Below are positions 2 through 16,865 of a stretch of 64,000 nucleotides of DNA, piece by piece (the first letter of the stretch is position 1; the number at the start of each line of letters is the position of its first letter). Source of the DNA: Candidatus Thiothrix sulfatifontis. GTDB lineage: Bacteria > Pseudomonadota > Gammaproteobacteria > Thiotrichales > Thiotrichaceae. Made by a program: the position numbers and the translations under genes. Below the pieces are notes generated by a model. It searched no databases. It had not been told where the DNA came from and saw nothing but the letters and a program-made list of their open reading frames with translations. The stretch is taken from contig CP094685.1 in the NCBI GenBank assembly GCA_022828425.1, forward strand, positions 2,604,001 to 2,668,000. The letters run 5' to 3'.

Positions 2-1258
2 CCGTATTTGACTGAGGTTGAGGAACAAGTGGGCAACAGTTGCGTGGCAAATGCGTGCGCGGGTGCGTATGAATACTTGGCTAAACGTCATTTGGGGGAA
101 TCCGCTGATGTCAGTCGCTTGTTTATTTATTACAACGCTCGCTATGAAGACGATGACATCGAGAATGACGACGGCACATCCATGCAGTCGGCGATTGAAG
201 GATTAAAGAAGTACGGTGCGTGCCACGAAAATTTGTGGCCTAACGACACAGACTACATTACCGAAGAACCGGCGGCGGAAGCCTATGAACACGCCGCCAA
301 TTTCAAAATCGCTGAAGCCGAATACGTCGAAACAGATTTGGATTTGTATCGTCACACCTTGGCAGAAGGCTATCCCATTGCGTTTTGTCTGAACACTTTC
401 TCTTCGTTTGATGAAGCAACCGACAACCGTGGGCGCGTCCCCTTACCAAAAAAGACCGAGCAGGTACGCGAAGAACACGGCTGGCACGCCATGCTTTGTG
501 TTGGCTATTTAGACAAAGATAAGATGTTCATCGTGCGTAATTCCTGGGGAAATGCATGGGGGGATCGTGGCTATTGCTACATTCCCTATAAATATGTGAT
601 TCACGCTGAACTCAACGGACATGATACTTGGGTCGTCAAAGCGGTTGAGGACTTGGATTTTAATGCTGACATTGAATCCGAAGATGACAGCTCTTACTTT
701 GCCGAAGATGGCGCAATCCAACTGTTCGATTTCTATGTTGCCACGGACGCGGTTGAGGATTTTTCTACAGCATTGGAGGCATTGTGTGAACAATATGCCA
801 ATGCGGAAGCCTTCTATTTTGACTACGAAGAAAGTGAAGAAGATGGCGTCACCTACGCCATTATCAGCAACTTCGACATCTCGTTGGATGACCCTGAAAC
901 GTTCTTGGAAGCGCTGGATACGTTGTGCAACGAATGGGCAGACGCTGAAAATTACGCTTTCAGCATAGAAGGTTACGACGATGACGATAGCGAAGCCGCC
1001 GCCGCACTGACGTTAAGTGATTTCTATATCTACACCGACAACGCTGAAACCGTCGCCGCAAAAATTGAAAAATTATGCGCCAAACACACGACTGACGATG
1101 ATTACACGCTTGAATGGGAAGAGAGCGAGGATGAAAACGGTGCTTACCTTGGATTTTCAACCTTTGAAATCACGCCAAATGATGAAGAAGCATTTTTAGC
1201 CGCACTGGAAACACTTTGCGAAAAACTGTCCAACGATAACGGTTATAACTGGGAATAA
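2..1258 (+). CDS. Papain-like (C1-type) cysteine peptidase with C-terminal acidic repeats, 5' partial
   Basis: The reading frame is open to the window edge and enters with P-Y-L-T-E-V-E-E-Q, the usual sequence just before the catalytic site of bacterial C1 peptidases, so the true start lies upstream. The catalytic Cys is in QVGNSCVANA, the His in HGWHAMLCVGY and the Asn in RNSWGNAWG, so the triad looks intact. After the peptidase domain (about residue 210 onward) come four degenerate repeats of about 45 residues, each with a F-x-(I/V/F)-x-x-x-D...A-L-x-x-L-C core and very rich in Asp/Glu. I do not recognise this repeat. Its stop codon overlaps the next start by one base (TAATG), so it is probably co-translated with the helicase gene. 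The substrate is unknown. A defence or protein quality-control role is only inference. Confidence 0.8.
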   Translation, partial: PYLTEVEEQVGNSCVANACAGAYEYLAKRHLGESADVSRLFIYYNARYEDDDIENDDGTSMQSAIEGLKKYGACHENLWPNDTDYITEEPAAEAYEHAANFKIAEAEYVETDLDLYRHTLAEGYPIAFCLNTFSSFDEATDNRGRVPLPKKTEQVREEHGWHAMLCVGYLDKDKMFIVRNSWGNAWGDRGYCYIPYKYVIHAELNGHDTWVVKAVEDLDFNADIESEDDSSYFAEDGAIQLFDFYVATDAVEDFSTALEALCEQYANAEAFYFDYEESEEDGVTYAIISNFDISLDDPETFLEALDTLCNEWADAENYAFSIEGYDDDDSEAAAALTLSDFYIYTDNAETVAAKIEKLCAKHTTDDDYTLEWEESEDENGAYLGFSTFEITPNDEEAFLAALETLCEKLSNDNGYNWE

Positions 1259-4143
1259 TGCAGATACTACTTTATAACGAACTGAATCCTGACAAAATCA
1301 CCGGCTTCCGCAAATGGCGCTCTTTCATCGAAGCCGATGATCTCAAGTCCGCTGACGTCAAAAAAATCGGTGACAACTTATACCGAGCGCGGCTCAACCG
1401 CAGCGACCGTTTGCTGCTGGCTTTTTACAACTACCAAGATCAACGTTACGCATTGGTGCTGGAATACCTCAAAAGCCACGATTACGCCGGTTCACGCTTC
1501 CTCAGTCACGGCGCGGTCATCGACGAAGACAAAATTCCCGCACTCGAACACGCCCCCGACGACACCCCCAACCTTGCTTACGTCAACACCCAACACGGGC
1601 GTTTCAATCTGTTGGATAAAATCATTTCGTTTGACGACACCCAGCAAGCCGTTTTCGAGCTACCGCCACCGCTGGTGATCATTGGTTCGGCAGGCAGTGG
1701 CAAAACCGCTTTGACGCTGGAAAAGCTCAAAGCCTGCCCCGGCGATGTCTTATACGTCACCCTATCGCCGTATCTGGTGAAAAATTCCCGCGACCTGTAT
1801 TACGCCCACGGCTACGAAAACGCGCAACAACACGTCGATTTCCTCTCCTTCCAAGAATTTCTCGAAAGCATCCAAGTCCCAGGCGGCAAACCGCTTCATT
1901 TCCGCGAATTTGCGCAGTGGTTCAGCCGTTTACCGCGCACGCCCATTAAAGATGCACACAAATTGTTCGAGGAATTCAAAGGGGTCATTACCGGCCCTTC
2001 CGTTGACAGCGCTTACCTCAGCCGCGACGAATACCTCAACCTAGGCATCAAGCAGTCGATTTTCTTGGAAGACGAACGCCCGGTTGTTTACGATATTTTC
2101 AGTCGCTATCTGAGTTTTTTGCAGGAAAATCAACGTTACGACAGCAATATTCTCAGCCACCAATACCTAGAACGGGTTGCACCACGCTACGATTTCGTGG
2201 TGGTGGATGAGGTGCAGGATTTAACCAATATCCAGCTTTTCCTCATTCTCAAAACCTTGCGCGACCCCACGGGATTTTTGCTGTGTGGCGATTCCAACCA
2301 AATCGTCCACCCCAATTTTTTCTCGTGGAGCAAGCTCAAAAGCCTGTTTTACACCCACGGCGAATTGCAGGCGGATGTCGATTTAATCCGCATCCTGAGC
2401 ACCAATTACCGCAATTCCCCGCAAGTCACCGCACTGGCAAACCGGATTTTGCTGCTCAAAAATGCCCGCTTCGGCTCGATTGATCGTGAAAGCAATTATC
2501 TGGTGCAAAGCAATGGGCATGTGCAAGGCGATGTGGTATTCCTGCAAGACCGCGATAACATCCGCCGCGAACTCGATGCCAAAACCCGTACCTCCACCCG
2601 TTTTGCCGTGGTGGTCATGCACCCCGAACAAAAAGCCGAAGCGCAACAACATTTCAACACGCCGCTGGTATTCTCGATCCAAGAAGCCAAGGGGCTTGAA
2701 TACGACAATATTATTCTCTACAACTTCCTGAGTGCAGAAAACAAACGCTTCCGCGAAATCAGCGCAGGTGTGACTCACGCCGACCTGCAACAAGACCTGA
2801 GTTACGCCCGCGCTAAAAACAAAACCGATAAGTCGCTGGAAACCTACAAGTTTTACATTAACGCACTCTACGTTGCCCTGACCCGTGCTGTGCGTAATTT
2901 GTACTGGATCGAGGCCGAATCCAAACAACACGTGCTGGATTTGCTAGGCTTGCATGATGCGCAAGAGACGCTCAATCTCGCTAACCAAAATTCCAGCCGC
3001 GAAGAATGGCAACGCGAAGCCCACAAACTTGAGTTGCAAGGCAAGCAAGAACAAGCTGACCGTATCCGCCAAGAAATTCTCCAGCAACAAAACCCGGATT
3101 GGGCAGTTTATACCGGCGAAACCTTGCAGCAATTGCACACCCAAGCCATTCAGCAGGGCGATAAAAAAGCCCGGCTGGCTCTGTTTGAAGTCGCGCTGGT
3201 ATACGAAGACCGGCAATGCCTACGCGATTTAATCAAGGTTGAGTTCAAACCTGCACGGCATCCTGCCAATGGCATCAAGCAATTACAGCAGAAATATTAC
3301 CTGCCTTATCAGCTTAAAAATCCAGTGGCTTTGCGCAACCAGCTCAATAAATTTGGCGTGGATTTCCGCAACCCGTTCAACCAAACCCCGCTGATGGTGG
3401 CGGCTTGGTTGGGCAACTCAAGCCTGATTAATGAACTGGCGGCACTCGGTGCCAACCCCGAATACGTGGATAATAACCACTTCACCGCGTTTCAGATTGC
3501 CTTGCAACAAGCCAGCAAAGACGAGAAATACGCCAAACATCACCTTGCCAGCATTTACCGGCAACTCGCCCCCGACAGTTTAAGCATTCAAATTGACGGC
3601 AAATTATTAAAACTCGATCAGCACAGCATGGAGTTTTTCCTGCTCAATCTAATGATTGCACTGTTTTACCGCGCCCTGCCTCTTAAAATCGGTGGAAACG
3701 GTGGCTTTGGTACGCAAGACATTATTGACGCAGTGGCACATTTCCCACCGGAGGTATTAAGCCCACAACGCAAACAACGCGCCTATATTTCCAGCATTTT
3801 CTCGAAAAACGAGATGTATCGCGACGACCGTTACAACCGCAAACTGTTCTATCGGGTGCGCCAAGGGCATTACCTGTTCAACCCCAGCCTCATGTTGAAA
3901 GTGGAAGGTGAGTGGGTCAATATTTACGACATGCTGGATCTCGACAAGTTGGCTTACCACCCCGCCGATACCCCGGATTGGTGGAGCGAGCACGATCAAG
4001 CCCGCTGGGACGCTTGGCTGGATGCGGGACGCGACCACATTAAACACCAGCTTCAGCAAGTGCGCACTGCCATGCTGAATGATGCACTTTCCATGTTAAA
4101 ATCCCTGTGCGAACAAGAATTACGTAAGATTCAGGACAGTTAA
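1258..4143 (+). CDS. UvrD/Rep-type SF1 helicase with N-terminal RelE-like region and C-terminal ankyrin repeat
   Basis: This 961-residue protein carries a P-loop GSAGSGKT at residues 143-150, a Walker B/motif II VVVDEVQDL near 314-322, and the UvrD-type motif YVALTRAVRNLYW near 537. It is therefore an SF1A-like DNA helicase or ATPase. The first 80 residues (G-D-N-L-Y-R-A-R-L...A-L-V-L-E-Y-L-K-S-H-D-Y) resemble the strand order of RelE/ParE toxins, although this is weak similarity by eye. Around residues 704-750 there is an ankyrin-type unit (NQTPLMVAAWLGNSSLINEL). The last 150 residues are unassigned. The start overlaps the stop of the papain-like gene by one base, which indicates coupling. 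Partner and substrate are unknown. Confidence 0.8.
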   Translation: MQILLYNELNPDKITGFRKWRSFIEADDLKSADVKKIGDNLYRARLNRSDRLLLAFYNYQDQRYALVLEYLKSHDYAGSRFLSHGAVIDEDKIPALEHAPDDTPNLAYVNTQHGRFNLLDKIISFDDTQQAVFELPPPLVIIGSAGSGKTALTLEKLKACPGDVLYVTLSPYLVKNSRDLYYAHGYENAQQHVDFLSFQEFLESIQVPGGKPLHFREFAQWFSRLPRTPIKDAHKLFEEFKGVITGPSVDSAYLSRDEYLNLGIKQSIFLEDERPVVYDIFSRYLSFLQENQRYDSNILSHQYLERVAPRYDFVVVDEVQDLTNIQLFLILKTLRDPTGFLLCGDSNQIVHPNFFSWSKLKSLFYTHGELQADVDLIRILSTNYRNSPQVTALANRILLLKNARFGSIDRESNYLVQSNGHVQGDVVFLQDRDNIRRELDAKTRTSTRFAVVVMHPEQKAEAQQHFNTPLVFSIQEAKGLEYDNIILYNFLSAENKRFREISAGVTHADLQQDLSYARAKNKTDKSLETYKFYINALYVALTRAVRNLYWIEAESKQHVLDLLGLHDAQETLNLANQNSSREEWQREAHKLELQGKQEQADRIRQEILQQQNPDWAVYTGETLQQLHTQAIQQGDKKARLALFEVALVYEDRQCLRDLIKVEFKPARHPANGIKQLQQKYYLPYQLKNPVALRNQLNKFGVDFRNPFNQTPLMVAAWLGNSSLINELAALGANPEYVDNNHFTAFQIALQQASKDEKYAKHHLASIYRQLAPDSLSIQIDGKLLKLDQHSMEFFLLNLMIALFYRALPLKIGGNGGFGTQDIIDAVAHFPPEVLSPQRKQRAYISSIFSKNEMYRDDRYNRKLFYRVRQGHYLFNPSLMLKVEGEWVNIYDMLDLDKLAYHPADTPDWWSEHDQARWDAWLDAGRDHIKHQLQQVRTAMLNDALSMLKSLCEQELRKIQDS

Positions 4144-4145
4144 TC

Positions 4146-5051
4146 GTGATCAATTACAAACACTTATACTACTTTCGTGAAGTGGCGACTTTAGGCAGCA
4201 TTGTGCGTGCCTGCGAAAGCCTGAACCTGACCCCGCAAACCATTAGCGGGCAATTGCAATTGCTGGAAGAATCCCTCGGCGTCAAACTCTTCCGCAAACA
4301 AGGCCGCAATCTGGAACTCACCGATGCGGGGCATACCACGCGGCGTTATGCCGATGAAATTTTCCAACTGGGCAGTGCTTTGGAACAAGCTTTACAAACC
4401 CACCCTTCCGGGCAGGCACGGCTGTTTCGGGTTGGCATCGTCGATGTGGTTCCCAAAACCATTGCCTATAAATTGCTGGAACCGGCGATGTTGCTCAGCC
4501 CGCAAATTCACATTGTGTGCCACGAAGGGCCTTTACCTGACTTGCTGGGGGAGCTTGCCATGCACCGCATTGAACTGGTAATTGCGGATAAGCCGCTTCC
4601 CAATACACTGCCAATCAAAGGTTTTTCACACCGTTTGGGGTTTAGTGGCATTAGCTTTTTTGCCCACACCACAGTAAAAGCAGACTTGCTGGGTGAATTC
4701 CCGCAATGCTTGCACAGCGCACCGTTGCTGATTCCCAGTGAAGGCACGTCAGTACGCAATGAACTCATGAATTGGTTTCATCAACAGAAAGTGCAGCCGA
4801 ATATTATTGGAGAATTTGATGACAGTGCGCTCATGCGGGCGTTTGGTTTCGGCGGTGCGGGTGTTTTTGTCGCACCCTCGGTGCAGGAAGATACGTTTAC
4901 TCAGGAAACGGATATTCATTGTATCGGGCGAGCCGACGGCGTAATGGAGCAGTTTTTTGCGATTTCGGTGGAACGGCGAATCAGCCATCCTGCGGTCTTG
5001 GCGATTACCAAGAGTGCGCAGGATTGGCTGCAACCCAAAGCTAAGCTGTGA
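4146..5051 (+). CDS. LysR-family transcriptional regulator, NhaR type
   Basis: The 301-residue protein begins at a GTG two bases after the helicase stop. The N-terminal winged helix-turn-helix (INYKHLYYFREV, LTPQTISGQLQLLEESLG, KLFRKQGRNLELTDAG) matches the NhaR branch of LysR regulators, which in E. coli activates the Na+/H+ antiporter gene nhaA in response to sodium. The remainder is the usual two-lobed effector-binding domain. No nhaA lies next to it, although a Mrp Na+/H+ antiporter operon lies about 43 kb away. It converges on terB with only three bases between the stops, so it may be read through from the helicase gene. Its target is not evident from the sequence. Confidence 0.85.
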   Translation: MINYKHLYYFREVATLGSIVRACESLNLTPQTISGQLQLLEESLGVKLFRKQGRNLELTDAGHTTRRYADEIFQLGSALEQALQTHPSGQARLFRVGIVDVVPKTIAYKLLEPAMLLSPQIHIVCHEGPLPDLLGELAMHRIELVIADKPLPNTLPIKGFSHRLGFSGISFFAHTTVKADLLGEFPQCLHSAPLLIPSEGTSVRNELMNWFHQQKVQPNIIGEFDDSALMRAFGFGGAGVFVAPSVQEDTFTQETDIHCIGRADGVMEQFFAISVERRISHPAVLAITKSAQDWLQPKAKL

Positions 5052-5529: not shown

Positions 5530-6570
5530 TTAGGCTTCCGCCAATAATTTCTTTTTGTGACGCAGTGAAGACACAATCGACAACACAATAAACGTCACGC
5601 CGATCAAGCCAGTAATCACTTCGGGAATATGGTAGTGAATACTAAACAGCATAATCACCGCCAACGCACCGATACCGTAATGCGCACCGTGTTCCAGATA
5701 AATGTATTCGTCCAAGGTGCCTTTGTGTACCAAATGCACAGTCAGAGAGCGCACAAACATTGCGCCAATCGCCAGACCCAACATAATAATGACGACATCT
5801 TTGGTGATCGCAAACGCGCCAATTACGCCGTCAAATGAGAAGGATGCATCCAATACTTCAAGGTATAAAAAGCCTGCCAAACCGTTACGTTTAACACTGT
5901 TGACAACCGCTTCACCTTCCGCTTCGTCTTCAAAAAACACGTCTAAACTACTGACCGCAATGTATAACACCACGCCAGCCAAACCCGCCACCAATACGGT
6001 TAAACGGGTTTTATCATCAATCGGCAGGAAATGCTGCAATAAGAACAACACGATCAACGACAATAGCACGCTAATCACGTCGAGCTTGCCCATCGCACTC
6101 ATGCGTTCTTCGATGGCATGAATCCAGTGAACATCCTTTTCGTTGTCGAACATAAAGCTCAGGAACACCAACAACAAGAACATGCCACCAAACGCCGCAA
6201 TACCCGCATGGCTTTCCATCAAATGGCGGGAATATTCCTCTGGATTATTCAACGCCATGCTCATGACATCAATCGTACCTAGCCCCGTCGCCACCGCCAC
6301 AATCACAATCGGGAACACTAAACGCATCCCGAATACCGCAATCAGAATACCGACGGTTAAAAATAGCTGTTGCCATTTTTCATCCATCTCCCTGAGGACA
6401 GAAGCATTCACCACCGCATTATCAAAAGACAGGCTCACTTCCATGACGCCTAACACCACCACCAAGAAAATGGCCGTAGCTATGCCCATCGAAGTGGTCG
6501 CACCCCACCAAATCGCCAAACCCACACAGAGGAAGGTGACTAAAAACGAATATTTAAAATCCTGAAACAT
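5530..6570 (-). CDS. terC: TerC integral membrane protein
   Basis: The 346-residue protein has about nine hydrophobic helices and the TerC signature of acidic residues buried in membrane segments (EVSLSFDNAVVNA near residue 45, EVLDASFSFDGVIGAFA near 235). TerC proteins act with TerB in tellurite and phage resistance, and related members support metalation of secreted enzymes. Here terC is separated from terE by 95 bases that contain a strong hairpin with a T-rich tail. It may therefore have its own promoter or be expressed by partial readthrough. terB follows directly. Confidence 0.93.
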   Translation of the reverse strand: MFQDFKYSFLVTFLCVGLAIWWGATTSMGIATAIFLVVVLGVMEVSLSFDNAVVNASVLREMDEKWQQLFLTVGILIAVFGMRLVFPIVIVAVATGLGTIDVMSMALNNPEEYSRHLMESHAGIAAFGGMFLLLVFLSFMFDNEKDVHWIHAIEERMSAMGKLDVISVLLSLIVLFLLQHFLPIDDKTRLTVLVAGLAGVVLYIAVSSLDVFFEDEAEGEAVVNSVKRNGLAGFLYLEVLDASFSFDGVIGAFAITKDVVIIMLGLAIGAMFVRSLTVHLVHKGTLDEYIYLEHGAHYGIGALAVIMLFSIHYHIPEVITGLIGVTFIVLSIVSSLRHKKKLLAEA

Positions 6571-6665: not shown

Positions 6666-7244
6666 TTAGCCAAGATTAACGCCCATAGAGGCAGCCATCG
6701 GGCCTAAACCACCCGCAAAACCTTGACCGACCGCTTTGAATTTCCACTCAGCATTGTGACGATACACTTCGCCAAACAACATAGCCGTTTCCACGCTGGC
6801 ATCTTCAGACAGGTCGTAACGCGCAATTTCAGTATTATCCGCAGCGTTCACCAAGCGGATATACGCATTGCTGACTTGCCCAAAGTTTTGTTTGCGGGCT
6901 TCTGCATCATGGATAGTCACAGCGAATACCAATTTCTTAACATTTTCACCCATGCCTGCAAGGTTCAGCTTCACTTGTTCGTCATCGCCCTCGCCTTCGC
7001 CGGTTTTGTTATCACCCAGATGTTCGACGTTGCCGCACGCGGATTTCTTATTGTTGTAGAAAATAAACGAGTCATCCGACAACACTTTACCGTCTTCGCC
7101 TAACATAAATGCGGAGGCATCCAAGTCAAAACCAGCGCCATCGGTCGCACGGGTATCCCAACCCAAACCTACCAATACGCCGGTCAAACCGGGGGCTTCT
7201 TTGGTTAACGAAACGTTGCCACCTTTTTGTAAACTAACAGCCAT
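6666..7244 (-). CDS. terE: TerE, TerD-family calcium-binding stress protein
   Basis: This 192-residue protein is a single TerD domain. It has the N-terminal signature [16 protein letters not shown], the metal-binding loop GFDLDASAF and the second acidic loop [14 protein letters not shown]. It matches TerE rather than TerD in segments such as GEDGKVLSD and ARKQNFG. These soluble proteins bind Ca2+ and assemble at the inner face of the membrane around TerC/TerB. It lies 37 bases downstream of terD and is the last gene before the terminator. Confidence 0.9.
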
Positions 7245-7281: not shown

Positions 7282-7860
7282 TTAACCAATGCTAATGCCG
7301 TATTGGTCACACATGGCCTTTAAACCGCCCGCATAACCTTGCCCAACGGCACGAAATTTCCATTCCTCGTTGTTGCGGTACAACTCACCGAACACCATCG
7401 CGGTTTCAGTGGAATAATCTTCTGCCAAATCGTAACGCACGATTTCCGTGCCGGTAACATCATTAACCACACGAATAAACGCATTGGCGACTTGACCGAA
7501 ATTCTGCCGACGCGCTTCGGCATCGTGAATCGTCACAGTAAACGCCACCTTGGTAATGTCGGCAGGCACTTTGCTCAAATCCACTCTCATGGATTCATCA
7601 TCGCCATCACCTTGCCCGGTACGATTATCGCCCGTGTGTTCAACGGAACCGTCGGTGGATTTCAGTTGATTGTAAAAAATAAAATCCGCATCGCCGCGCA
7701 CTTTACCGCTCGCGGTCAGCAAAAATGCACTGGCATCAAGGTCGAAACCTGCGCCATCGGTACTGCGCTCATCCCACCCCAAACCAATAAGAATTTTGGT
7801 TAAACTGGGATCGGTTTTGCTTAAAGAAAGATTGCCGCCTTTTTGTAAACTTAAAGCCAT
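7282..7860 (-). CDS. terD: TerD, calcium-binding stress protein
   Basis: This is a 192-residue TerD domain protein with [11 protein letters not shown] and [14 protein letters not shown] acidic metal-binding loops. The segment [12 protein letters not shown] is nearly identical to the E. coli protein. The C-terminal [15 protein letters not shown] is the usual family ending. Its closest neighbour in the window is terE, and the two are probably an old tandem duplication. It lies 24 bases downstream of terA on the minus strand. Confidence 0.92.
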
Positions 7861-7884: not shown

Positions 7885-9102
7885 TTATTTTGAACCTGCC
7901 CGCCAGTTTAAACCCCAATGATAGGCTTGATCCATTTCCTGATGCCCTTTGAAATAACGCACTTCGCGATTAACCTGCAAGGCACCATTGACATTTTCCA
8001 ACACCAACACCGCACACATGCCCAGTGAATTGCTGCCTTCGGTCAAGCGAATTTCTAACGGGGGTTCATTCGGCACATAAATAGTGACGACACCATCGGT
8101 TTGTGCCCAGTTCGGCGCACCTTCGTAGATAAAGGCGTACACCAGAACCCGCTTAAAGGTTTGCCACTGTTGCCCGTTAATGTGCAGCCATTCACCTTCA
8201 CTGATCGCGCCCGTGCGGTCATCGCCTTTCAACTCGATAAACGGGTCAGAGCGGAACGAACCAAAGCGGTTGCCGAGGGCTTGAATCGCGCTAATCGTGC
8301 CGTCGCGCTGTTCGTACAAACAACCGACATCCAGATCCATGCCTTTATTGCTACCGCCGCCGAATAAGCCGCCCAGCAAACCGCCACTTTTCGCAGCCGG
8401 TGCTTGACCACGATTCCAGTTCAGGTTGATGCGGATTTCGCCGAAGCCTTCGGTTTTCTTTTCCAGACTGACACGCGGTTTGGCTTTATCCAGCGTCACT
8501 TTGCTCAGGGAAATAGGCTTTTTCGTGGGTGCAGGCGGAGGTGTTACTGGCGGTGCTGCCGCTGGTGTGGGGTCACTGATTTCTACCCCGAAATGTTCCG
8601 CTAAGGGCTTTAAACCACCCGCGAAACCTTGCCCAACGGCGCGGAATTTCCACTGCCCTTGGCGCAGGTACAATTCGCCCAGAATCAGCGCGGATTCAAC
8701 CCTGCCATTAGCGGGCAAAGTGGCTTGCAATACCGCCTGCCCCGCCGCGTTTTTCACGGTGACTTGCAAATTGGTGAATGCGCCGAAATTGGTGCGGTTT
8801 TCGTGAATGGTGGCGGTGAAGGCTATTTTTTCGGTGCCTGCCAATACATTCGGCAGGTCAACGGCGAATTCAGCACGACCGGCACTGTTGCCGACAAACG
8901 CCACACTGCCATTACCGGGGCGCGGTTGCCCGTAAAACACCATGTCATCATCGCCGCGCACTTTGCCGGTAGCCGTTAAGACAAAGGCGGAAATATCCAC
9001 CTCTGCCCCACTGACTTGGGCAGGCGATAGCAGGACTTCAACGTGCAGTTTTTCACGCGGTACCGGGCAATTTGCCCCAGCCACCAGTTGGGTCACTGAC
9101 AT
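7885..9102 (-). CDS. terA: TerA, two-domain tellurite resistance protein
   Basis: The 405-residue protein has an N-terminal TerD-like domain (residues 1-175, ending in the family signature [15 protein letters not shown]). A Pro/Ala-rich linker (about 178-195) leads to a second TerA domain with GMDLDVGCLYEQRDG and GDDRTGAISEGE. E. coli TerA has a similar length (385). The N-terminal domain lacks the full DLDAS loop (VDISAF instead), so metal binding may rest mainly on the second domain. It follows the terZ-like gene by 10 bases. Confidence 0.88.
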   Translation of the reverse strand: MSVTQLVAGANCPVPREKLHVEVLLSPAQVSGAEVDISAFVLTATGKVRGDDDMVFYGQPRPGNGSVAFVGNSAGRAEFAVDLPNVLAGTEKIAFTATIHENRTNFGAFTNLQVTVKNAAGQAVLQATLPANGRVESALILGELYLRQGQWKFRAVGQGFAGGLKPLAEHFGVEISDPTPAAAPPVTPPPAPTKKPISLSKVTLDKAKPRVSLEKKTEGFGEIRINLNWNRGQAPAAKSGGLLGGLFGGGSNKGMDLDVGCLYEQRDGTISAIQALGNRFGSFRSDPFIELKGDDRTGAISEGEWLHINGQQWQTFKRVLVYAFIYEGAPNWAQTDGVVTIYVPNEPPLEIRLTEGSNSLGMCAVLVLENVNGALQVNREVRYFKGHQEMDQAYHWGLNWRAGSK

Positions 9103-9112
9103 CGCGTTACTC

Positions 9113-9712
9113 CTAGAGTGCTGCCAATACCGCAGGCATCATGTCGTTGGCGACTGCGCCAGCCGTCGGTGTGCCGACTGCTTTCATCTCCCAACCTGCA
9201 CCGTTACGGCTCACAATCGCCATGACTACGCCGGTGTGTGCGCCTTTGTCGGACAGGTTGAATTTCGCCATTTCGGTGTTATTGCTGTCATCCACCAAAC
9301 GGCAGAATGCGCCTCCAACTTCATTGAAGGTTTGCCCACGGAACGAGCAGACCGTGAACGCCAGATACGCCACATTCCCCGGTAAACGGGTCAAATCGAC
9401 GAAAATCACTTCATCATCGCCCGAACCTTCGCCCGTCAGATTGTCGCCGGAATGCTTGATTGAACCGTCGCGGCTTTGCAATTGGCGGAACCACACCACA
9501 TCCAGCAGGTTTTTTTGTGCATCCAGCAACAGGCAGGAAGCGTCCAAGTCAATGTCTGCCGCCGCGCCGCCGCCAAACATGCTACCGAAGAAACCGCTTT
9601 TTTTCGGTGCTTCTGCCGGATCCCAGCCCAAGCCCATACGTACTTTACTCAAGCCACCGCCGCCGGTTTTTTCCAGCGAAATGCGTTGACCTTTGCTTAA
9701 ACTTACAGCCAT
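9113..9712 (-). CDS. terZ: TerZ-like TerD-family protein
   Basis: This TerD-family protein (199 residues from the chosen start) carries a Gly-rich insert, KKSGFFGSMFGGG, before the metal loop DIDLDASCLLLD, plus GDNLTGEGSGDDEV. The layout resembles TerZ/TerX. I chose the ATG at 9712 because it has GGAG six bases upstream, whereas the ATG four codons earlier has AAGG immediately against it. It is the first gene of the minus-strand ter operon and lies 91 bases downstream of the ATP-grasp gene. Confidence 0.82.
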   Translation of the reverse strand: MAVSLSKGQRISLEKTGGGGLSKVRMGLGWDPAEAPKKSGFFGSMFGGGAAADIDLDASCLLLDAQKNLLDVVWFRQLQSRDGSIKHSGDNLTGEGSGDDEVIFVDLTRLPGNVAYLAFTVCSFRGQTFNEVGGAFCRLVDDSNNTEMAKFNLSDKGAHTGVVMAIVSRNGAGWEMKAVGTPTAGAVANDMMPAVLAAL

Positions 9713-9803
9713 GAGAATCTCCATCCTTTTGTATTATCAAGTCATCACATCTTAGAGAGTCGCCCAAAGGCAGGCAACACTCACCCAGAATTGTCAGGTT
9801 ATT

Positions 9804-10829
9804 TCAGCTTAACGGTTGCAATACCACCGGCGTACTGATTTCTGCCACCCGCAAACCGTAGCGCAATGGGGCGATGACCGGCGTTTCCCCGCGCAAACTT
9901 TGCAGGAAAACTTCCGCCAGATTAACGCCCGCCAGACATGCCAAGCCGAAACCACCGGCAGGGCGCGGGTTAATTTCTAGCAAACGTGGTTCGCCCAATG
10001 CATTGGCCTTGAACTGAATATTGAACAAACCATTCAAGCAGTAATGCGCGGTCAAACGCTCAACCATGCCTTGCACCGCCGCGTTATTGTCGATTTCCTG
10101 CCCGTAACCGGCTTGCGGGTGCTTTCGGCGTTGAATCGCGCATAACAATTGCCCGTCACGCCCCGCACAATCCACACTCCATTCATCACCCGGCAAATGT
10201 TCCATCACCAACAAGGTGGGAAATGTTGGGGTGTGTGCCATGCCTGCGCGTAATTCCGCCAGCGGGATTTCGTATTCGACCCCTTCCAACAAATGCGTAA
10301 TGCTGTCGCGCTGCGTATCCAAAATACGGAAGCCCAAACCAAACACCGATACCGCCGGTTTTATGCACAAAGCCGTGTGGTGTTGCGAGAGTTCCGCTAC
10401 CGCCTGATCAAAACTGTTGGCATCCGTCACCGCAATGCACGCCATTGCAGACGCCACTGTTGGCGGCACTAAGCGGTAAAATTCCCCTTTGTCATTCAAC
10501 AAGGTCAGCGTTTCGGGGGTAGCCACTGCGATAACTTGTGTGCCGATTTGCGCGAAATCCGCTCGATGGCGCACCAGCAATACGGATTCTTTAGCGGGCC
10601 AGAAGTAATCAATGCGCTGCTGCTGGCAAAAATTCAAGCACCAATCCAAATAAGCTGCACCCACCAAGCCGGGCGGCTCGTGCCATGCTTCATCCGCAGC
10701 CAAAAATACTGAAGCTGCCGGATTCGTGTGCGTTGAAATCACGGTAACGCCTTGCCCCACACGCGCCTGACGCATGTTGTTAAACACCGTGTTAATGCTG
10801 GAAAATGTTTTATTGAACCAAATGCGCAT
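9804..10829 (-). CDS. ATP-grasp ligase of the Ter-associated module
   Basis: This 341-residue protein shows an ATP-grasp fold. The metal and phosphate-binding motif EINPRPAGGFG lies near residue 285, and lysine-bearing segments such as ALCIKPAVSVFGLG lie near 155. Such enzymes join a carboxylate to an amine through an acyl-phosphate. Published comparative work on Ter systems places an ATP-grasp ligase with the phosphoribosyltransferase, HAD and lyase genes, which here lie across the divergent promoter at 10830-10963. It probably belongs to the same pathway. The substrate is unknown. Confidence 0.8.
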   Translation of the reverse strand: MRIWFNKTFSSINTVFNNMRQARVGQGVTVISTHTNPAASVFLAADEAWHEPPGLVGAAYLDWCLNFCQQQRIDYFWPAKESVLLVRHRADFAQIGTQVIAVATPETLTLLNDKGEFYRLVPPTVASAMACIAVTDANSFDQAVAELSQHHTALCIKPAVSVFGLGFRILDTQRDSITHLLEGVEYEIPLAELRAGMAHTPTFPTLLVMEHLPGDEWSVDCAGRDGQLLCAIQRRKHPQAGYGQEIDNNAAVQGMVERLTAHYCLNGLFNIQFKANALGEPRLLEINPRPAGGFGLACLAGVNLAEVFLQSLRGETPVIAPLRYGLRVAEISTPVVLQPLS

Positions 10830-10963
10830 GGTATGCCCTGTTTAGAATTGTAGTAATGGTGACAGGCGCTAGTATGCCCGATTCTCCGCAATAAATTCAG
10901 GCATTTTCACCCAAATTCTTGCTATCATACTGCCCATAATCATCCAGCTCGGTAACAATAATT

Positions 10964-12097
10964 ATGATGAATTTACCCCTAGGAGCAAACCTGCCACTGA
11001 CCGGCAACCGCTGGACAGTCGCCCTCACCTTTCCGCACGACATCCGCCACGATTTAGGGCTGGCAGTGTTGCCGGTGAATGAAGCCAAACAGTTAGTCAT
11101 TCCCCCGCAATTAGCCCATGCCAATGCCACCGAATGGGCAAGCGCCAAGCTGAATGACGCAGGCACGAGCTACGCCCTGACACTGGATACCAGCGTGCTA
11201 TCCAATCCCAACATTACGCGCTTGTGCCTAGTGCTGTACCGCTACGGCGCACGCGGGCCGCTGAATGTTGGCAGCAATGTCAGTGTGCAAATGGATGACG
11301 TTTTCAGCCACAGCATTGCTTTGGGGGACATGCAAGCCTCCGCGCTGATTGCCGCCGAATTTTACCAGCGAGCGGGGCAATGGAAAGTACGCGCTCTGGC
11401 AGAAACCTCCGCGTATGGGCTTGCCGCACTAGGGCGCAGAATGGGCATGGAGGTGGATGAAAGCTCACCCTTCAACACCCCAAACAACCCCGAACGTCAG
11501 TCCGGTAACTGGACAGGCACAGCGTTTCTGGTTGCTCCGAATGTCTTCATGACCAACGCACATGTGGCAGACGGCGCAAGCCGTATCCGCCTGAGTTCGC
11601 TGCAAGGCAATCTCGATGCTGAACCGATTATCAGCGACAGTACCAACGATCTGGCATTGTTGCGGGTAGCAACACCGAGTCACCTACAACCACTCCCGTT
11701 TCGCAGCAGCGGTGTCGGTTTGGCGCAAAGCATCACCACGCTGGGCTATCCGCTGGCAAGTTTGATGGGCAGCGGCATTCAAGTCACACAAGGGGTTATT
11801 TCCGGCTTATTCGGAGCGCACAACGACATTCGCCTCTTGCAATTCACCGCACCGATACAACCCGGTTCCAGCGGCAGTCCCTTGCTGGATGAAACGGGCG
11901 CAGTGTTGGGCGTGGTGTCGTCCACGTTTACGCACGCGCAGAACATGAATTTTGCCATCCGTCACAGTTTGGCGATTGCATTAATGGAAGCGGCTAATAT
12001 TCAATACCAGCTACAAAGCAGTGCGCAAACGCTGTCAGCCGCGCAAATGGTGACGCAAACCCAAAACGCCATCTGGCGTGTAGAATGCGCCAGCTAA
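10964..12097 (+). CDS. TerD domain fused to a trypsin-like serine protease
   Basis: The first 160 residues form a TerD-type domain (N-term LPLGANLPLTG; RAGQWKVRALAETSAYGL near 140), but the acidic metal loop is degenerate. Residues 165-377 are a chymotrypsin-fold protease of the HtrA/V8 type with His200 in TNAHVADG, Asp229 in STNDLALLRV and Ser303 in PGSSGSPLLD, so the triad is complete. There is no signal peptide, so it should act in the cytoplasm or at the inner membrane face with the other Ter proteins. It lies 21 bases before the phosphoribosyltransferase gene and heads that operon. A stress-activated regulatory protease is a reasonable inference. Confidence 0.87.
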   Translation: MMNLPLGANLPLTGNRWTVALTFPHDIRHDLGLAVLPVNEAKQLVIPPQLAHANATEWASAKLNDAGTSYALTLDTSVLSNPNITRLCLVLYRYGARGPLNVGSNVSVQMDDVFSHSIALGDMQASALIAAEFYQRAGQWKVRALAETSAYGLAALGRRMGMEVDESSPFNTPNNPERQSGNWTGTAFLVAPNVFMTNAHVADGASRIRLSSLQGNLDAEPIISDSTNDLALLRVATPSHLQPLPFRSSGVGLAQSITTLGYPLASLMGSGIQVTQGVISGLFGAHNDIRLLQFTAPIQPGSSGSPLLDETGAVLGVVSSTFTHAQNMNFAIRHSLAIALMEAANIQYQLQSSAQTLSAAQMVTQTQNAIWRVECAS

Positions 12098-12118: not shown

Positions 12119-13225
12119 ATGCAAATCAATGTCGCCCTCGAACAGGGCACGCTCAACCTGACTATCGAATCTGGCACACATTCGCCGGATGAACTCTTCG
12201 GCTTTGCGCAACGCCGCAACCCGAAACGCGCTTTTCTGTTTGTCTCTAAAGTGTTGGGCAGGCACATTCCGGTATCACCAGCCGTCATGCGCAACGCCAC
12301 GGATACGCTTGCCGCGCAAATCCCCGCTGACTTGCCGGGGCCAGTCGTGGTCATCGGCATGGCAGAAACCGCGATTGCTATGGGTGCGGGTGTGCAACAA
12401 GCCCTCAGCCGCAGCCGTGACGACACGCTATACCTTTGCACCACGCGCCACCCGCTGGACTTGCCGATTCTGGTCGAATTCCGCGAAGAACACAGCCACG
12501 CCACCCAGCAAGTACTGCATCTGCCGCAACACGCTGCCGATGTCGAATTGCTACGCACGGCACGTAGCTTGGTGTTGGTCGATGACGAAGCCTCCACCGG
12601 CAAAACCTTCGCCAATTTGCTGGAAGCCTTGCAACGCGCCGGGCTGGATCAGTTTGAACACATCGTTGCTGCCACCCTCACCGACTGGTCGGGCGGTGCT
12701 GCCGCCGAACGTTTAGGCGAACGCGCTATTGCCGTTTCACTGCTATCAGGACATTGGGACTGGCAAGCCAACGATGCGCCCCCGCCGGAAATGCCGCAAG
12801 TCGATGTTTTGGGCACGGGCGAATGGCACGCGAACCCTGCCAATGATTGGGGACGGTTGGGTATGCGCCAACATCTGCTTACCCCGATTGCACAGCAACT
12901 GAACGTCACTCCCGGCGAACGTATCCTCGTCCTCGGCACAGGCGAATTTGTTTGGCCTCCGTACCTACTGGCGGAATACCTCGAACAACAAGGCGCGACG
13001 GTACATTTCAGCGCGACCACCCGTTCACCAATTGCCTTGGGTCACAGTATCCAACACCGCTATTGCTTGCACGACAATTACGGGCAAGGCATCCCCAACT
13101 TCCTCTACAACGTCGTGCCAACCGACTACGACCGCATCCTGCTGTGCAGCGAACCGCCCGCGCATTTGCTCGATAAAGCGCTGATCAGCATCTTGAACCC
13201 AACCTGTGTGGAGTTCTACCCGTGA
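12119..13225 (+). CDS. Ter-associated phosphoribosyltransferase with C-terminal TRSP domain
   Basis: The 368-residue protein has an N-terminal type I phosphoribosyltransferase core. The PRPP loop is LVLVDDEASTGKTFANLL near residue 142, preceded by VVVIGMAETAIAMGAGV. The C-terminal third (GERILVLGTGEFVWPPYLLA, SATTRSPIALG) matches the TRSP domain found after this PRTase in Ter operons. It should transfer a ribosyl-phosphate group or remove one from a base-like substrate. The next gene starts inside its last codon (ATGA-type overlap). The reaction is inferred from the family. Confidence 0.83.
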   Translation: MQINVALEQGTLNLTIESGTHSPDELFGFAQRRNPKRAFLFVSKVLGRHIPVSPAVMRNATDTLAAQIPADLPGPVVVIGMAETAIAMGAGVQQALSRSRDDTLYLCTTRHPLDLPILVEFREEHSHATQQVLHLPQHAADVELLRTARSLVLVDDEASTGKTFANLLEALQRAGLDQFEHIVAATLTDWSGGAAAERLGERAIAVSLLSGHWDWQANDAPPPEMPQVDVLGTGEWHANPANDWGRLGMRQHLLTPIAQQLNVTPGERILVLGTGEFVWPPYLLAEYLEQQGATVHFSATTRSPIALGHSIQHRYCLHDNYGQGIPNFLYNVVPTDYDRILLCSEPPAHLLDKALISILNPTCVEFYP

Positions 13226-13956
13226 AGCCTTTATTACTCACCGATTTGGATGACACGCTGTTCCAGACTGCCCGCAAAATGCCAGTGGATGCGGATAAAA
13301 TCCCCGCCGCGCAAGGCAAAACCAACGACAGCAGTAGCTTTATGCACCCTTGGCAACACGATTTCATCCACTGGGCGCTGGACTGCATGACCGTGATTCC
13401 GGTCACTGCACGGGGAATTGCCTCTTTCAAACGTGTCCATCTGCCTTTCCAGCACGGCGCGGTGTGCGTTCACGGCGCGGCGATTCTGCAAGCGGATGGC
13501 ACGCTTGACCCCGACTGGCATTCACACATCCAGCCGCAACTTGCCGCTTACCAAGACCGCCTACCAGACATGTTGGCAACCGCGCTGCAAATCGGTGAAA
13601 CGCTAGGGTTATCTTTACGCGGCTGGCTGGAATCGGTAGAAGACAGCGCGGCGTATCTGGTGGTCAAAAGCAATACCGCCAGCGTGACAGACCTCCAGCA
13701 ACTGCTGCACAGCTTACGTGAAACCCTTAACTTGCAAGGCTTCTACACCCACATGAATGGCAACAACTTGGCGCTGCTGCCCGATTTCGTCAATAAACGC
13801 GCAGCGGCGGCAGAAATTCTGCGGCGGCATACGGCTGAACACGGGCGCACTCCGGTATTCGGCATGGGTGATAGCGTGTCCGATTTGGGCTTCATGCGCT
13901 TGTGTGACTTCGCCGCGTTTCCGCCCAACACGCAAATTTGCAGGCAATTACCATGA
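13222..13956 (+). CDS. HAD-superfamily hydrolase of the Ter module
   Basis: Motif I is LLLTDLDDTLFQT near residue 8, giving the nucleophile and acid aspartates. The final motif is GMGDSVSDLGFMRLCDF near 216. The length of 244 residues and the cap arrangement resemble sucrose-phosphatase or Cof-like phosphatases. It probably removes phosphate from the nucleoside-like product or an intermediate made by the neighbouring PRTases. It overlaps both neighbours by four bases, which indicates translational coupling. The substrate is not known. Confidence 0.82.
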   Translation: MKPLLLTDLDDTLFQTARKMPVDADKIPAAQGKTNDSSSFMHPWQHDFIHWALDCMTVIPVTARGIASFKRVHLPFQHGAVCVHGAAILQADGTLDPDWHSHIQPQLAAYQDRLPDMLATALQIGETLGLSLRGWLESVEDSAAYLVVKSNTASVTDLQQLLHSLRETLNLQGFYTHMNGNNLALLPDFVNKRAAAAEILRRHTAEHGRTPVFGMGDSVSDLGFMRLCDFAAFPPNTQICRQLP

Positions 13957-15026
13957 GCGCAACCCACGGTTTTCACGGCTCGTATGCTGCCAGCGATGTC
14001 ACGTTTTTGTTGCGGCAAATCGTGATGGAAACTACGCCCGTGGAGGAAAAGGAACGCCTGATTCAAAGTGGGCAACGCCATTATTCCGAAATGCTGACGC
14101 TGGAATCGCCGCCCTCCGACGCGCATCAAGCCTTGTTCGAGCAAGCACTGGAGGATGGGCTGGAACGCCTTGCCCGCGAAGTGCAAGCCTTGGCACTGGC
14201 CTTGCAGCAACGTCGCCCAAACCGCCCGATTGTGCTGGTCAGTTTCGTGCGGGCAGGTGTGCCGTTGGGCGTATTGCTGGTACGAGCTTTGCGCGAATTG
14301 GGGGTGGAAAGCGAGCATTACGGCATCAGCATTGTGCGTGACAAAGGCATAGACCAAGCGGCGGTGGACTGGATTGAGCAACGCCATGCGTTCGCCGATC
14401 TGGTGTGGGTCGATGGCTGGGTCGGCAAAGGCGCAATTCATGGCGAATTACAACGCTCATTGGGCAAACGTTACCCTGATGGCGACATTCCCTTGGTGGT
14501 GTTGGCTGACCCGACCGGCAAAGCGTGGCTGGCAGCATCCGGCGAAGATTGGCTGATTCCGTTTGGCGTTTTAGGCTCGACTGTTTCCGGCTTGGTGTCG
14601 CGCTCGATTTTACGCGAGGATGGCGGCTGGCACGCTTGTGTCAATTACACGCATTTGGCGGAATACGATGTTAGCCAATGGTTTGTCGATACGGTGGATG
14701 CTTGCCGTCGTCTTCAGCAAGGTGTCAGTGCAGCGGATTGGTCAGATGCGTTGCGCCACACCCTGCTGGCGCAATCGCAAACCACGATTGCACAACTGGT
14801 TGAAACCTATGACATTACCAACCTTAATCGCTTGAAACCGGGGATTGCGGAAGCCACCCGTGCGGTCATGCGGCGCGTGCCAGAACACATTCTGGTGCAG
14901 CGCCTCGATGACCCGAATATCCGCTTATTACGCCATCTTGCCGAAGCGCGGGGGATTCCCCTGCAAGCGGTTGGGGATGGGCTTGCGCCATACCGTGCGA
15001 TAACCATAATCAAGAAGACCACATGA
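13953..15026 (+). CDS. StiP-family phosphoribosyltransferase-like protein of the Ter module
   Basis: This protein (357 residues from ATG 13953) belongs to the family annotated as cysteine protease StiP or PRTase_1. The central PRTase-like core includes NRPIVLVSFVRAGVPLG, SEHYGISIVRDKGID and FADLVWVDGWVGKGA. The ATG at 13953 overlaps the HAD stop as ATGA, so I prefer it to an in-frame TTG five codons upstream. The motif CVNYTHLAEYDVSQWFVD near residue 228 is characteristic of the family. Despite the protease name, context points to nucleotide-type chemistry. The next gene overlaps by four bases. Confidence 0.8.
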   Translation: MSATHGFHGSYAASDVTFLLRQIVMETTPVEEKERLIQSGQRHYSEMLTLESPPSDAHQALFEQALEDGLERLAREVQALALALQQRRPNRPIVLVSFVRAGVPLGVLLVRALRELGVESEHYGISIVRDKGIDQAAVDWIEQRHAFADLVWVDGWVGKGAIHGELQRSLGKRYPDGDIPLVVLADPTGKAWLAASGEDWLIPFGVLGSTVSGLVSRSILREDGGWHACVNYTHLAEYDVSQWFVDTVDACRRLQQGVSAADWSDALRHTLLAQSQTTIAQLVETYDITNLNRLKPGIAEATRAVMRRVPEHILVQRLDDPNIRLLRHLAEARGIPLQAVGDGLAPYRAITIIKKTT

Positions 15027-15976
15027 CCACACGAATTTCTCCTTACCAGTTAGGCGCAACCTTATACATGCCAGCAACACGCCCCGATTTGCTGGAGGTG
15101 ATTTTGCGGCAGAAAATCCCCGATCTGCGCTCGATGGTGATTTGCCTCGAAGACGCGGTGCGTGAAGATGAAGTCGCCGCCAGCTTGACTAACCTGCAAC
15201 ACTGTTTGCACGAACTGCGCGGGCAAGAGCGCGGCGTACCGCTGGTATTTATTCGCCCGCGTCATCCCCAGATGGCGCACAAGCTATTGGCGATGCAAGG
15301 CATTGAGTGCATTGACGGCTTTGTGCTGCCCAAGTTTGATAATCAATCGTTTGCGGCGTGGTATGCCGTGGTGCAAGCTGCGCCCGCGCATTTGCTGTTT
15401 ATGCCCACCCTGGAAACGGCGCAAGTATTGGATGTGCTGGCAGTACGCGAATTGTGCGAACGTTTGCAAGATGACGGGATTAAATCGCGGATATTGGCGT
15501 TGCGGATTGGCGGCAACGATTTACTGTCGTGTTTGCGTTTGCGAACTCACCATGCCCATACTTTGTACGATGGCCCGTTGGGGTATGTGGTGGCGATGCT
15601 GGTGACGCATTTTGTTCCGGCAGGTTTTCATCTGACTGCGCCCGTGTTTGAATATTTTCAGGATCACACCATTTTGCAAGCCGAATTCCAGCGCGATTTG
15701 CTGCACGGTTTGGTGGGCAAAACGGTGATTCACCCCAGCCAGATTGCGGTGATCCATCAGGCGTTGAAAGTCGATAGCCGGGATTACGAAGCGGCGTTGC
15801 GGATTTTGGATGATGCCATGCCTGCGGTGTTCCAGTTTGAAGGCGCGATGTGCGAACCAGCGACGCATCACCATTGGGCGGTGCAAGTGATGGAACGTGC
15901 CAAGCATTTTGGCTGCCATTTGCACGCGGTGGCGGTGGATGAGGGGATGGAGAAAGAGTGTGTGGCGTTGTATTAA
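15023..15976 (+). CDS. HpcH/HpaI-type C-C bond lyase of the Ter module
   Basis: The 317-residue protein is a TIM-barrel lyase of the citrate-lyase beta / HpcH superfamily. Family residues appear in LRSMVICLEDAVREDEV (acidic metal ligand), LVFIRPRH, GFVLPKFDN, LLFMPTLETAQ and LRIGGNDLLS. Ter-linked versions are predicted to cleave or form a carbon-carbon bond during synthesis of a small signalling or protective metabolite. It ends the five-gene operon that begins with the TerD-protease fusion. The actual substrate cannot be told from sequence. Confidence 0.83.
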   Translation: MTTRISPYQLGATLYMPATRPDLLEVILRQKIPDLRSMVICLEDAVREDEVAASLTNLQHCLHELRGQERGVPLVFIRPRHPQMAHKLLAMQGIECIDGFVLPKFDNQSFAAWYAVVQAAPAHLLFMPTLETAQVLDVLAVRELCERLQDDGIKSRILALRIGGNDLLSCLRLRTHHAHTLYDGPLGYVVAMLVTHFVPAGFHLTAPVFEYFQDHTILQAEFQRDLLHGLVGKTVIHPSQIAVIHQALKVDSRDYEAALRILDDAMPAVFQFEGAMCEPATHHHWAVQVMERAKHFGCHLHAVAVDEGMEKECVALY

Positions 15977-16047: not shown

Positions 16048-16377
16048 ATGCACGCTATCGCTATCCGTGAACTGCGGAATAATCCCGCCAGCCTAACGCA
16101 CTCACTCGAACAAAATGAATATGTTTTCATCACCAAACACGGCAAACCCATTGGCGTTGCTGTGCCATTGACCGATGAAAACTTACAGATAGGCTTGACC
16201 AAAGCCACCGCGCTGCAAGCATGGCGTAACGGTGACATATCCTTGGGAAAAATGGCGGAACTGCTGCAAATGGATAAACGCGAGTTACGGCATGTTTTGG
16301 CACGCATGGGGCTTCCCATGATTGATTATCCTGCGGATGAAGTCACCGCAGAAATCGACTTTTTGCTAAAAGCTTAA
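16048..16377 (+). CDS. Antitoxin: Phd/YefM-like N-terminus joined to a UPF0175-like C-terminus
   Basis: Residues 1-45 (MHAIAIRELRNNPASLTHS...FITKHGKPIGVAVPL) are a Phd/YefM DNA-binding dimerisation domain. Residues 50-95 (KATALQAWRNGDISLGKMAELLQMDKREL) match UPF0175, a helical antitoxin commonly paired with DUF3368 toxins. At 109 residues it is a two-part antitoxin. The toxin gene follows after 5 bases, so the pair is an operon that probably represses itself. Confidence 0.83.
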   Translation: MHAIAIRELRNNPASLTHSLEQNEYVFITKHGKPIGVAVPLTDENLQIGLTKATALQAWRNGDISLGKMAELLQMDKRELRHVLARMGLPMIDYPADEVTAEIDFLLKA

Positions 16378-16382
16378 CCCGT

Positions 16383-16865
16383 ATGCCAGCTTTAATTGTT
16401 GCGGATAGCTCGCCGTTAATCACGCTGTTGAATATCGGGCGTATTGAATTACTGACGAAATTATTCACCCATATTGTTGTCCCGCCGATAGTGGCACAAG
16501 AAGTAGAACGTGGTGAAATGCCGGATTCCATTTGGTTTAGTTTGCAACAAGCAGGCTTTATTCGCACCACGGCGTTACAAACAGATCAACGGCTGGCAGT
16601 ATTGTTATTGCAACTTGACCCTGGCGAATCAGAAGCGATCTTACTGGCGGATCAACTCAAACTGCCTTTGCTCATTGATGAAAAAGCAGGGCGCAAAATG
16701 GCAACACTTATGGGTTTGCACATCACGGGGTTAGTCGGCGTATTGGGTGCGCTGAAACACCAAGGTTATATTTCCAGTCAACAAATCCCGGATATTTTGG
16801 CAGACTTGGAAAAAGCAGAATTTCGCATGAGTGTGGATTTGAAACGACTCCTGCTTGAAAGTTGA
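16383..16865 (+). CDS. DUF3368 PIN-like toxin
   Basis: The 160-residue protein starts MPALIVADSSPLITLLNIGR, with the first acidic PIN residue in VADSSPL. Further acidic residues follow in LDPGESEAILLA and LLIDEKAGRKMA, the classic PIN-domain order for Mg2+-dependent ribonuclease activity. DUF3368 proteins are toxins neutralised by UPF0175-type antitoxins, which is what precedes it. It converges on the IclR gene with 13 bases between. The RNA target is unknown. Confidence 0.85.
   Translation: MPALIVADSSPLITLLNIGRIELLTKLFTHIVVPPIVAQEVERGEMPDSIWFSLQQAGFIRTTALQTDQRLAVLLLQLDPGESEAILLADQLKLPLLIDEKAGRKMATLMGLHITGLVGVLGALKHQGYISSQQIPDILADLEKAEFRMSVDLKRLLLES

Follow-up and report, generated by a model that had tools for sequence, protein, structure and literature searches.

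A TerD-protease fusion at the head of the Ter biosynthetic operon of Thiothrix: a probable HtrA-like accessory of the Ter system

What the Ter system is for, beyond tellurite resistance in the laboratory, is a long-standing question, and one gene of Candidatus Thiothrix sulfatifontis raises it in a specific form: why should a serine protease be built into a TerD-domain protein at the head of a Ter biosynthetic operon? We analysed the stretch of 64,000 nucleotides that carries this gene (hereafter the window); the organism is a Thiothrix with 97% identity to T. caldifontis. A sequence-only reading of the same stretch had proposed an intact cytoplasmic protease recruited to TerD complexes at the membrane and perhaps activated by stress, with neighbouring Ter or biosynthetic proteins as substrates.

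The proposed architecture was borne out. A Trypsin_2 profile match and a TerD fold match lie in a single 377-aa open reading frame, which is the first of five plus-strand genes and heads the biosynthetic operon as had been claimed (Table 1). Only 21 bp separate it from the PRTase_2/TRSP gene on the same strand, and the HAD-like, StiP/PELOTA and C-C lyase genes follow with overlapping ends. A chance or frame artefact is ruled out by the presence of the fusion in 10 genomes of the genus and by full-length homologues of about 40% identity elsewhere. A promoter scan of 10780-11010, uninformative for this organism, found no sigma-70-like site.

Table 1. Features of the TerD-protease gene and of the surrounding Ter locus (window coordinates)
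Feature	Coordinates	Strand	Basis
TerD-protease fusion gene, 377 aa, first gene of the biosynthetic operon	10964..12097	+	
TerD-fold domain, residues 1-165, nearest TerA/TerF N-terminal domains, acidic metal loop lost	10964..11458	+	
Variable linker, residues 166-182	11459..11509	+	alignment
Trypsin_2 / HtrA-type protease domain, residues 183-340	11510..11983	+	profile and structure matches
Catalytic His200 codon CAT	11561..11563	+	alignment
Catalytic Asp229 codon GAT	11648..11650	+	alignment
Catalytic Ser303 codon AGC, motif PGSSGSP	11870..11872	+	alignment
C-terminal tail, residues 341-377	11984..12094	+	
PRTase_2 + TRSP phosphoribosyltransferase	12119..13225	+	profile match
HAD-IIB-like phosphatase	13222..13956	+	weak match, below cut-off
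StiP + PELOTA_1 protein	13938..15026	+	profile match
C-C_Bond_Lyase, HpcH/CitE-like TIM barrel	15023..15976	+	profile match
ATPgrasp_Ter ligase, divergent neighbour	9804..10829	-	profile match
TerZ-like TerD-family protein	9113..9724	-	
TerA-like protein, N-terminal TerD domain and C-terminal half	7885..9102	-	
TerD/TerE family protein	7282..7860	-	profile match
TerD/TerE family protein	6666..7244	-	profile match
TerC-family membrane protein (DUF475/TerC)	5530..6570	-	profile match
TerB-like protein, 151 aa	5055..5510	-	position and TerB matches in relatives L009, L126, L127

By its predicted gene content, the locus is a Ter locus with a putative nucleoside-like biosynthetic module, an association described in PMC7824862, after Anantharaman et al. 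2012. It shares ATP-grasp, PRTase/TRSP, HAD, StiP/PELOTA, C-C lyase and TerZ/A/B/C/D/E with Ter biosynthetic loci such as that of R478, which lacks a TerD-protease and has TerW, TerX, TerY, PP2C and a kinase instead. A search of the window genome for TerW homologues, made without a positive control, was empty. The locus is flanked at 8-5051 by a papain-like reading frame, a UvrD/Rep-like helicase reading frame (961 aa) and a LysR-type regulator, recognised by eye. A helicase and a LysR-type regulator also lie beside the Ter locus in other Thiothrix (L009, L126 and L127). The annotations of L034, L035 and R478 likewise show helicases close to their Ter loci. Directly downstream of the biosynthetic operon, 16048-16865 holds two genes that resemble a toxin-antitoxin system: a UPF0175/Phd-like antitoxin and a gene with a weak match to PIN/DUF3368.

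The N-terminal domain only partly matches the TerD profile (PF02342): 21.5 bits against a cut-off of 25.3, over residues 117-156. Homologue L033 clears the cut-off with 33.2 bits, and four others (G005, G007, G017 and G019) score at or just over it. We therefore turned to structure. An AlphaFold model built from five sequences, usable for residues 1-155 only, has mostly pLDDT 55-90 over that range, and this part matched solved TerD structures with Z scores of 11.6 (3ibz), 11.1 (2qz7) and 10.9 (2kxt) and with Foldseek E values of 9e-6 to 5e-5. On this modelled part, the domain is assigned the TerD beta-sandwich fold. The metal loop is degenerate, as the sequence-only reading had it: in an alignment that took in TerD, TerA, TerZ, TerX and TerF proteins, the DLDAS and GDNxTGxGDGDDE segments are absent from the fusion or substituted. 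The second acidic loop is also absent from the N-terminal domains of TerA and TerF, with which the fusion shares the C-terminal motif ExYxRxxxWKxRAxxxxxxxGLxxLxxxxG. TerF (TerD + vWA) and TerA resemble the fusion further in joining a TerD domain to a second domain in the same loci; their second domain is a vWA or a second TerA half, whereas that of the fusion is a protease.

The protease half matches Trypsin_2 (PF13365) at residues 185-317 with an E value of 6.7e-24. Its triad proved complete, with H200, D229 and S303 in order and a GxSGxP-type motif at the serine; triad and surroundings are invariant in an alignment of the window protein and nine homologues with 39-98% identity to it, and every homologue aligned keeps the triad intact. 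The nearest solved structures to this domain are HtrA/DegP. The AlphaFold model is poor here (pLDDT about 20-60), and matches of this half to ATPase beta-barrel folds were discounted, the model being unreliable in that part. The residue six before Ser303 is Pro in the window protein and Ala in some relatives; HtrA has Ala at this position and trypsin has Asp. A preference for Lys/Arg is not expected because this Pro or Ala is HtrA-like and not Asp, and cleavage after small aliphatic residues is predicted instead. The fusion thus resembles HtrA/Deg proteases (S1C) in its chymotrypsin-fold domain, its closest solved structures and its non-trypsin S1 residue, and differs from them in having a TerD domain in front, no export signal and no PDZ domain (none was matched in the fusion protein by profile searches). 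An exported HtrA protease is ruled out by the same two absences. The lack of a signal peptide noted earlier held up, in that the N-terminus is not signal-like, unlike that of exported relatives; the protein is probably cytoplasmic.

Selection on the parts of the gene was then estimated by comparing the window gene with five Thiothrix homologues for which dS was not saturated. Omega was 0.01-0.06 in the protease domain versus 0.11-0.22 in the TerD part, and the linker was the fastest-changing segment in most comparisons. Constraint on the protease equals that on TerC, TerZ and TerA. This contrast argues for what would be an active enzyme with a conserved job, attached to a faster-evolving recognition domain.

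The full-length fusion was found in 10 of 16 genomes of the genus; these same genomes have ATPgrasp_Ter over the cut-off, TerD and StiP, all of which are absent from the other six. Absence of the fusion from closely related loci had been named as an outcome that would speak against the proposal; all 10 genus genomes with the locus carry it, and the fusion is a fixed part of this Ter locus in Thiothrix. Two other genera of the family carry it at 63-64% identity, one copy being frameshifted near residue 310 (G019:C42:19618-20759). The reading frame of the T. caldifontis copy meets a TGA three codons ahead of its usual end (L009:11120-11131). Between the TerD-protease and PRTase genes, two loci hold a TerF-like gene (TerD + vWA; L009:11175-12506 and L127:4746-6083) that is absent in the window; TerD hits in the same place suggest that it is present in 4 of the 10 Thiothrix loci (G005, G011, G012 and G015), and no vWA-TerF-like match was found anywhere in the window genome. 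Beyond the family the fusion is rare on chromosomes, since the wider samples were nearly empty: 369 genomes of the class held only the family fusions and, in one genus, a divergent fusion of a second type, and 398 genomes of the phylum gave a full-length match in the window's own genome only. A match in Thermomicrobium (query 115-332) was set aside as protease-only, with no Ter gene among its annotated neighbours.

Plasmids gave a different picture. The fusion was matched over at least 80% of the query on 125 plasmid records, nearly all from Pseudomonas (about 115 megaplasmid records) plus Burkholderia stagnalis; a DNA-level search of plasmids returned 117 close matches, of which 116 extend over 80% or more. 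On the Pseudomonas plasmids examined, a single cluster of genes in the same direction, ending in terZABCDE, has the fusion between ATP-grasp and PRTase, and in Burkholderia it directly precedes PRTase. One copy is plasmid-borne in Pseudomonas putida S12 (record NZ_CP009975). Another Pseudomonas plasmid copy (CP109686, 137509-140200) appears to be in two parts, an IS1182 transposase being annotated at the site of the match, and is an apparent case of natural disruption. The Pseudomonas gene had no match at the DNA level in 5,426 E. coli genomes. An IMG/VR contig (L057) carries a homologue inside the same operon; phages gave protease-half matches only, none over 80% of the query, which speaks against a phage origin. 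PRTase itself is present on 2,556 plasmid records, mostly enterobacterial. In R478, ATP-grasp leads directly to PRTase with no protease between, and the Ter loci of family f140 also lack it. The locus thus occurs with and without the fusion, which makes the fusion an optional module.

The second fusion type, which belongs to another family, lies outside the Ter operon (L116:9378-10616 and L117:3122-4342). Its TerD domain scores 92-95 bits, is most like TerA and precedes an intact triad; the gene adjoins bioC/bioD-like genes, and one of its genomes lacks StiP and PRTase_2 over the cut-off. The biosynthetic module is therefore not obligatory for a TerD-protease. In a tree, all ten TerD fusions, this divergent type included, fall on one side of a branch (support 91/91), which is compatible with a single origin but is not proof of it. 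Among non-fusion proteases in the genome samples, the closest are for the most part exported and trypsin-like; their N-termini resemble signal peptides, and they carry Sel1 or further domains. Of 14 non-TerD relatives, 13 have a Cys soon after the catalytic His (HVxxxC) that is absent in all 10 fusions, and many of these relatives also have a C-terminal Cys; the loss may reflect a disulfide given up after a move to the reducing cytoplasm.

Is the fusion a tellurite-resistance factor? Plasmid pRBL16 carries it, yet terCD alone from this plasmid give tellurite resistance in E. coli (PMC8779313). The Klebsiella genes terZ-F also suffice in that host (PMC8115787). Because terCD suffice and the R478/enterobacterial operon lacks the fusion, it is not needed for tellurite resistance.

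The account that we favour, at a probability of about 0.6, is that of an HtrA-like protease which works in the cytoplasm as an accessory of the Ter system and which its TerD domain both tethers and regulates. The enzyme would be an active serine protease of the HtrA/Trypsin_2 kind in which a TerA-like TerD-fold domain takes the place of the PDZ domain; this domain, having presumably lost canonical Ca2+ binding, would serve for docking or regulation, either by docking on other TerD-family proteins or by responding to the nucleoside-like product of the operon. The fusion would so act, as an accessory of a Ter stress-response locus, on partners of the Ter system. We infer enzymatic activity from the conserved sequence; that the TerD domain docks or gates, and that the substrate belongs to the Ter response, is likewise deduced, and the membrane recruitment, stress activation and substrates proposed at the outset stand as conjecture. 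Several observations weigh against this account. Within the genus, the fusion is either present with the complete locus or missing with it, so that co-occurrence does not single out a Ter partner; and there are the lineage beside bioC/bioD-like genes, the frameshifted homologue and the IS1182-split plasmid copy.

A possible but rather unlikely alternative is that the TerD domain senses the nucleoside-like product of the ATP-grasp, PRTase, HAD and lyase enzymes and switches the protease on when phages, plasmids or xenobiotics attack; the proteolysis would be regulated or suicidal, in the manner of the ligand-gated effectors of CBASS and CRISPR. TerD domains have been predicted to recognise nucleotide derivatives, with Ter enzymes making the signal (PMC7159879, PMC7824862), and the fusion heads the biosynthetic genes. 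Antiviral systems, moreover, have acquired trypsin-like proteases repeatedly (PMC12799240), and in PADLOC the protease half matches the RT-Protease_XI profile (E 1e-16) and, weakly, LmuA, HamA1 and Avs1b. In RT-Protease XI, HamA, Avs1a and LmuA, as in the fusion, a trypsin-like domain is an accessory module of a sensing system. However, in HamA, Avs1a and LmuA the protease is N-terminal of a defence enzyme and an MBL pro-nuclease is encoded upstream (PMC12799240), whereas here the protease is C-terminal and no MBL gene was found among the flanking genes identified; the second fusion lineage, away from biosynthetic genes, also fits poorly. That the TerD domain is itself a receptor for a nucleoside-like Ter metabolite, gating the protease, we hold to be similarly doubtful. 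Less probable again, though in line with the sequence-only reading, is a protease for the Ter proteins themselves, which would bind TerC/TerD complexes and either process them to maturity or clear them as quality control: its place in the locus and a TerA-like docking domain would suit it, but the same Ter proteins occur without the protease in the R478 and f140 loci, and terCD work without it in E. coli (PMC8779313). A dead or decaying scaffold that only binds peptides is very improbable given the invariant triad, oxyanion-hole motif and surroundings and the low omega of the protease, even though some conflict-system trypsin domains are inactive (PMC7159879) and one homologue is frameshifted and one IS-split.

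A genome-wide survey of serine proteases in prokaryotes listed the TerD-Tryp architecture in 2008 for the Pseudomonas syringae protein YP_273108.1 and noted it as uncharacterised (BMC Genomics, PMC2605481). In that protein too, TerD is N-terminal to a trypsin-family domain, a match by architecture and not by alignment; the entry is one row of a domain-architecture table, without operon context, conservation or mechanism. The present analysis adds the surrounding operon, the strict link between fusion and locus across the genus, the finding that the fusion is optional, the difference in selection between its two domains, the match to the TerD fold and a second lineage of the architecture.

If the TerD domain does gate the protease, the fusion would be a ligand-activated proteolytic effector of a phage or stress response and the first direct read-out of a Ter signal. 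Since the protease is built in and an S303A variant can trap its substrate, it offers a practical way to learn what the Ter system acts on; the fusion is found not only in Thiothrix but also on Pseudomonas megaplasmids, which are widespread, and this makes the question testable in laboratory strains.
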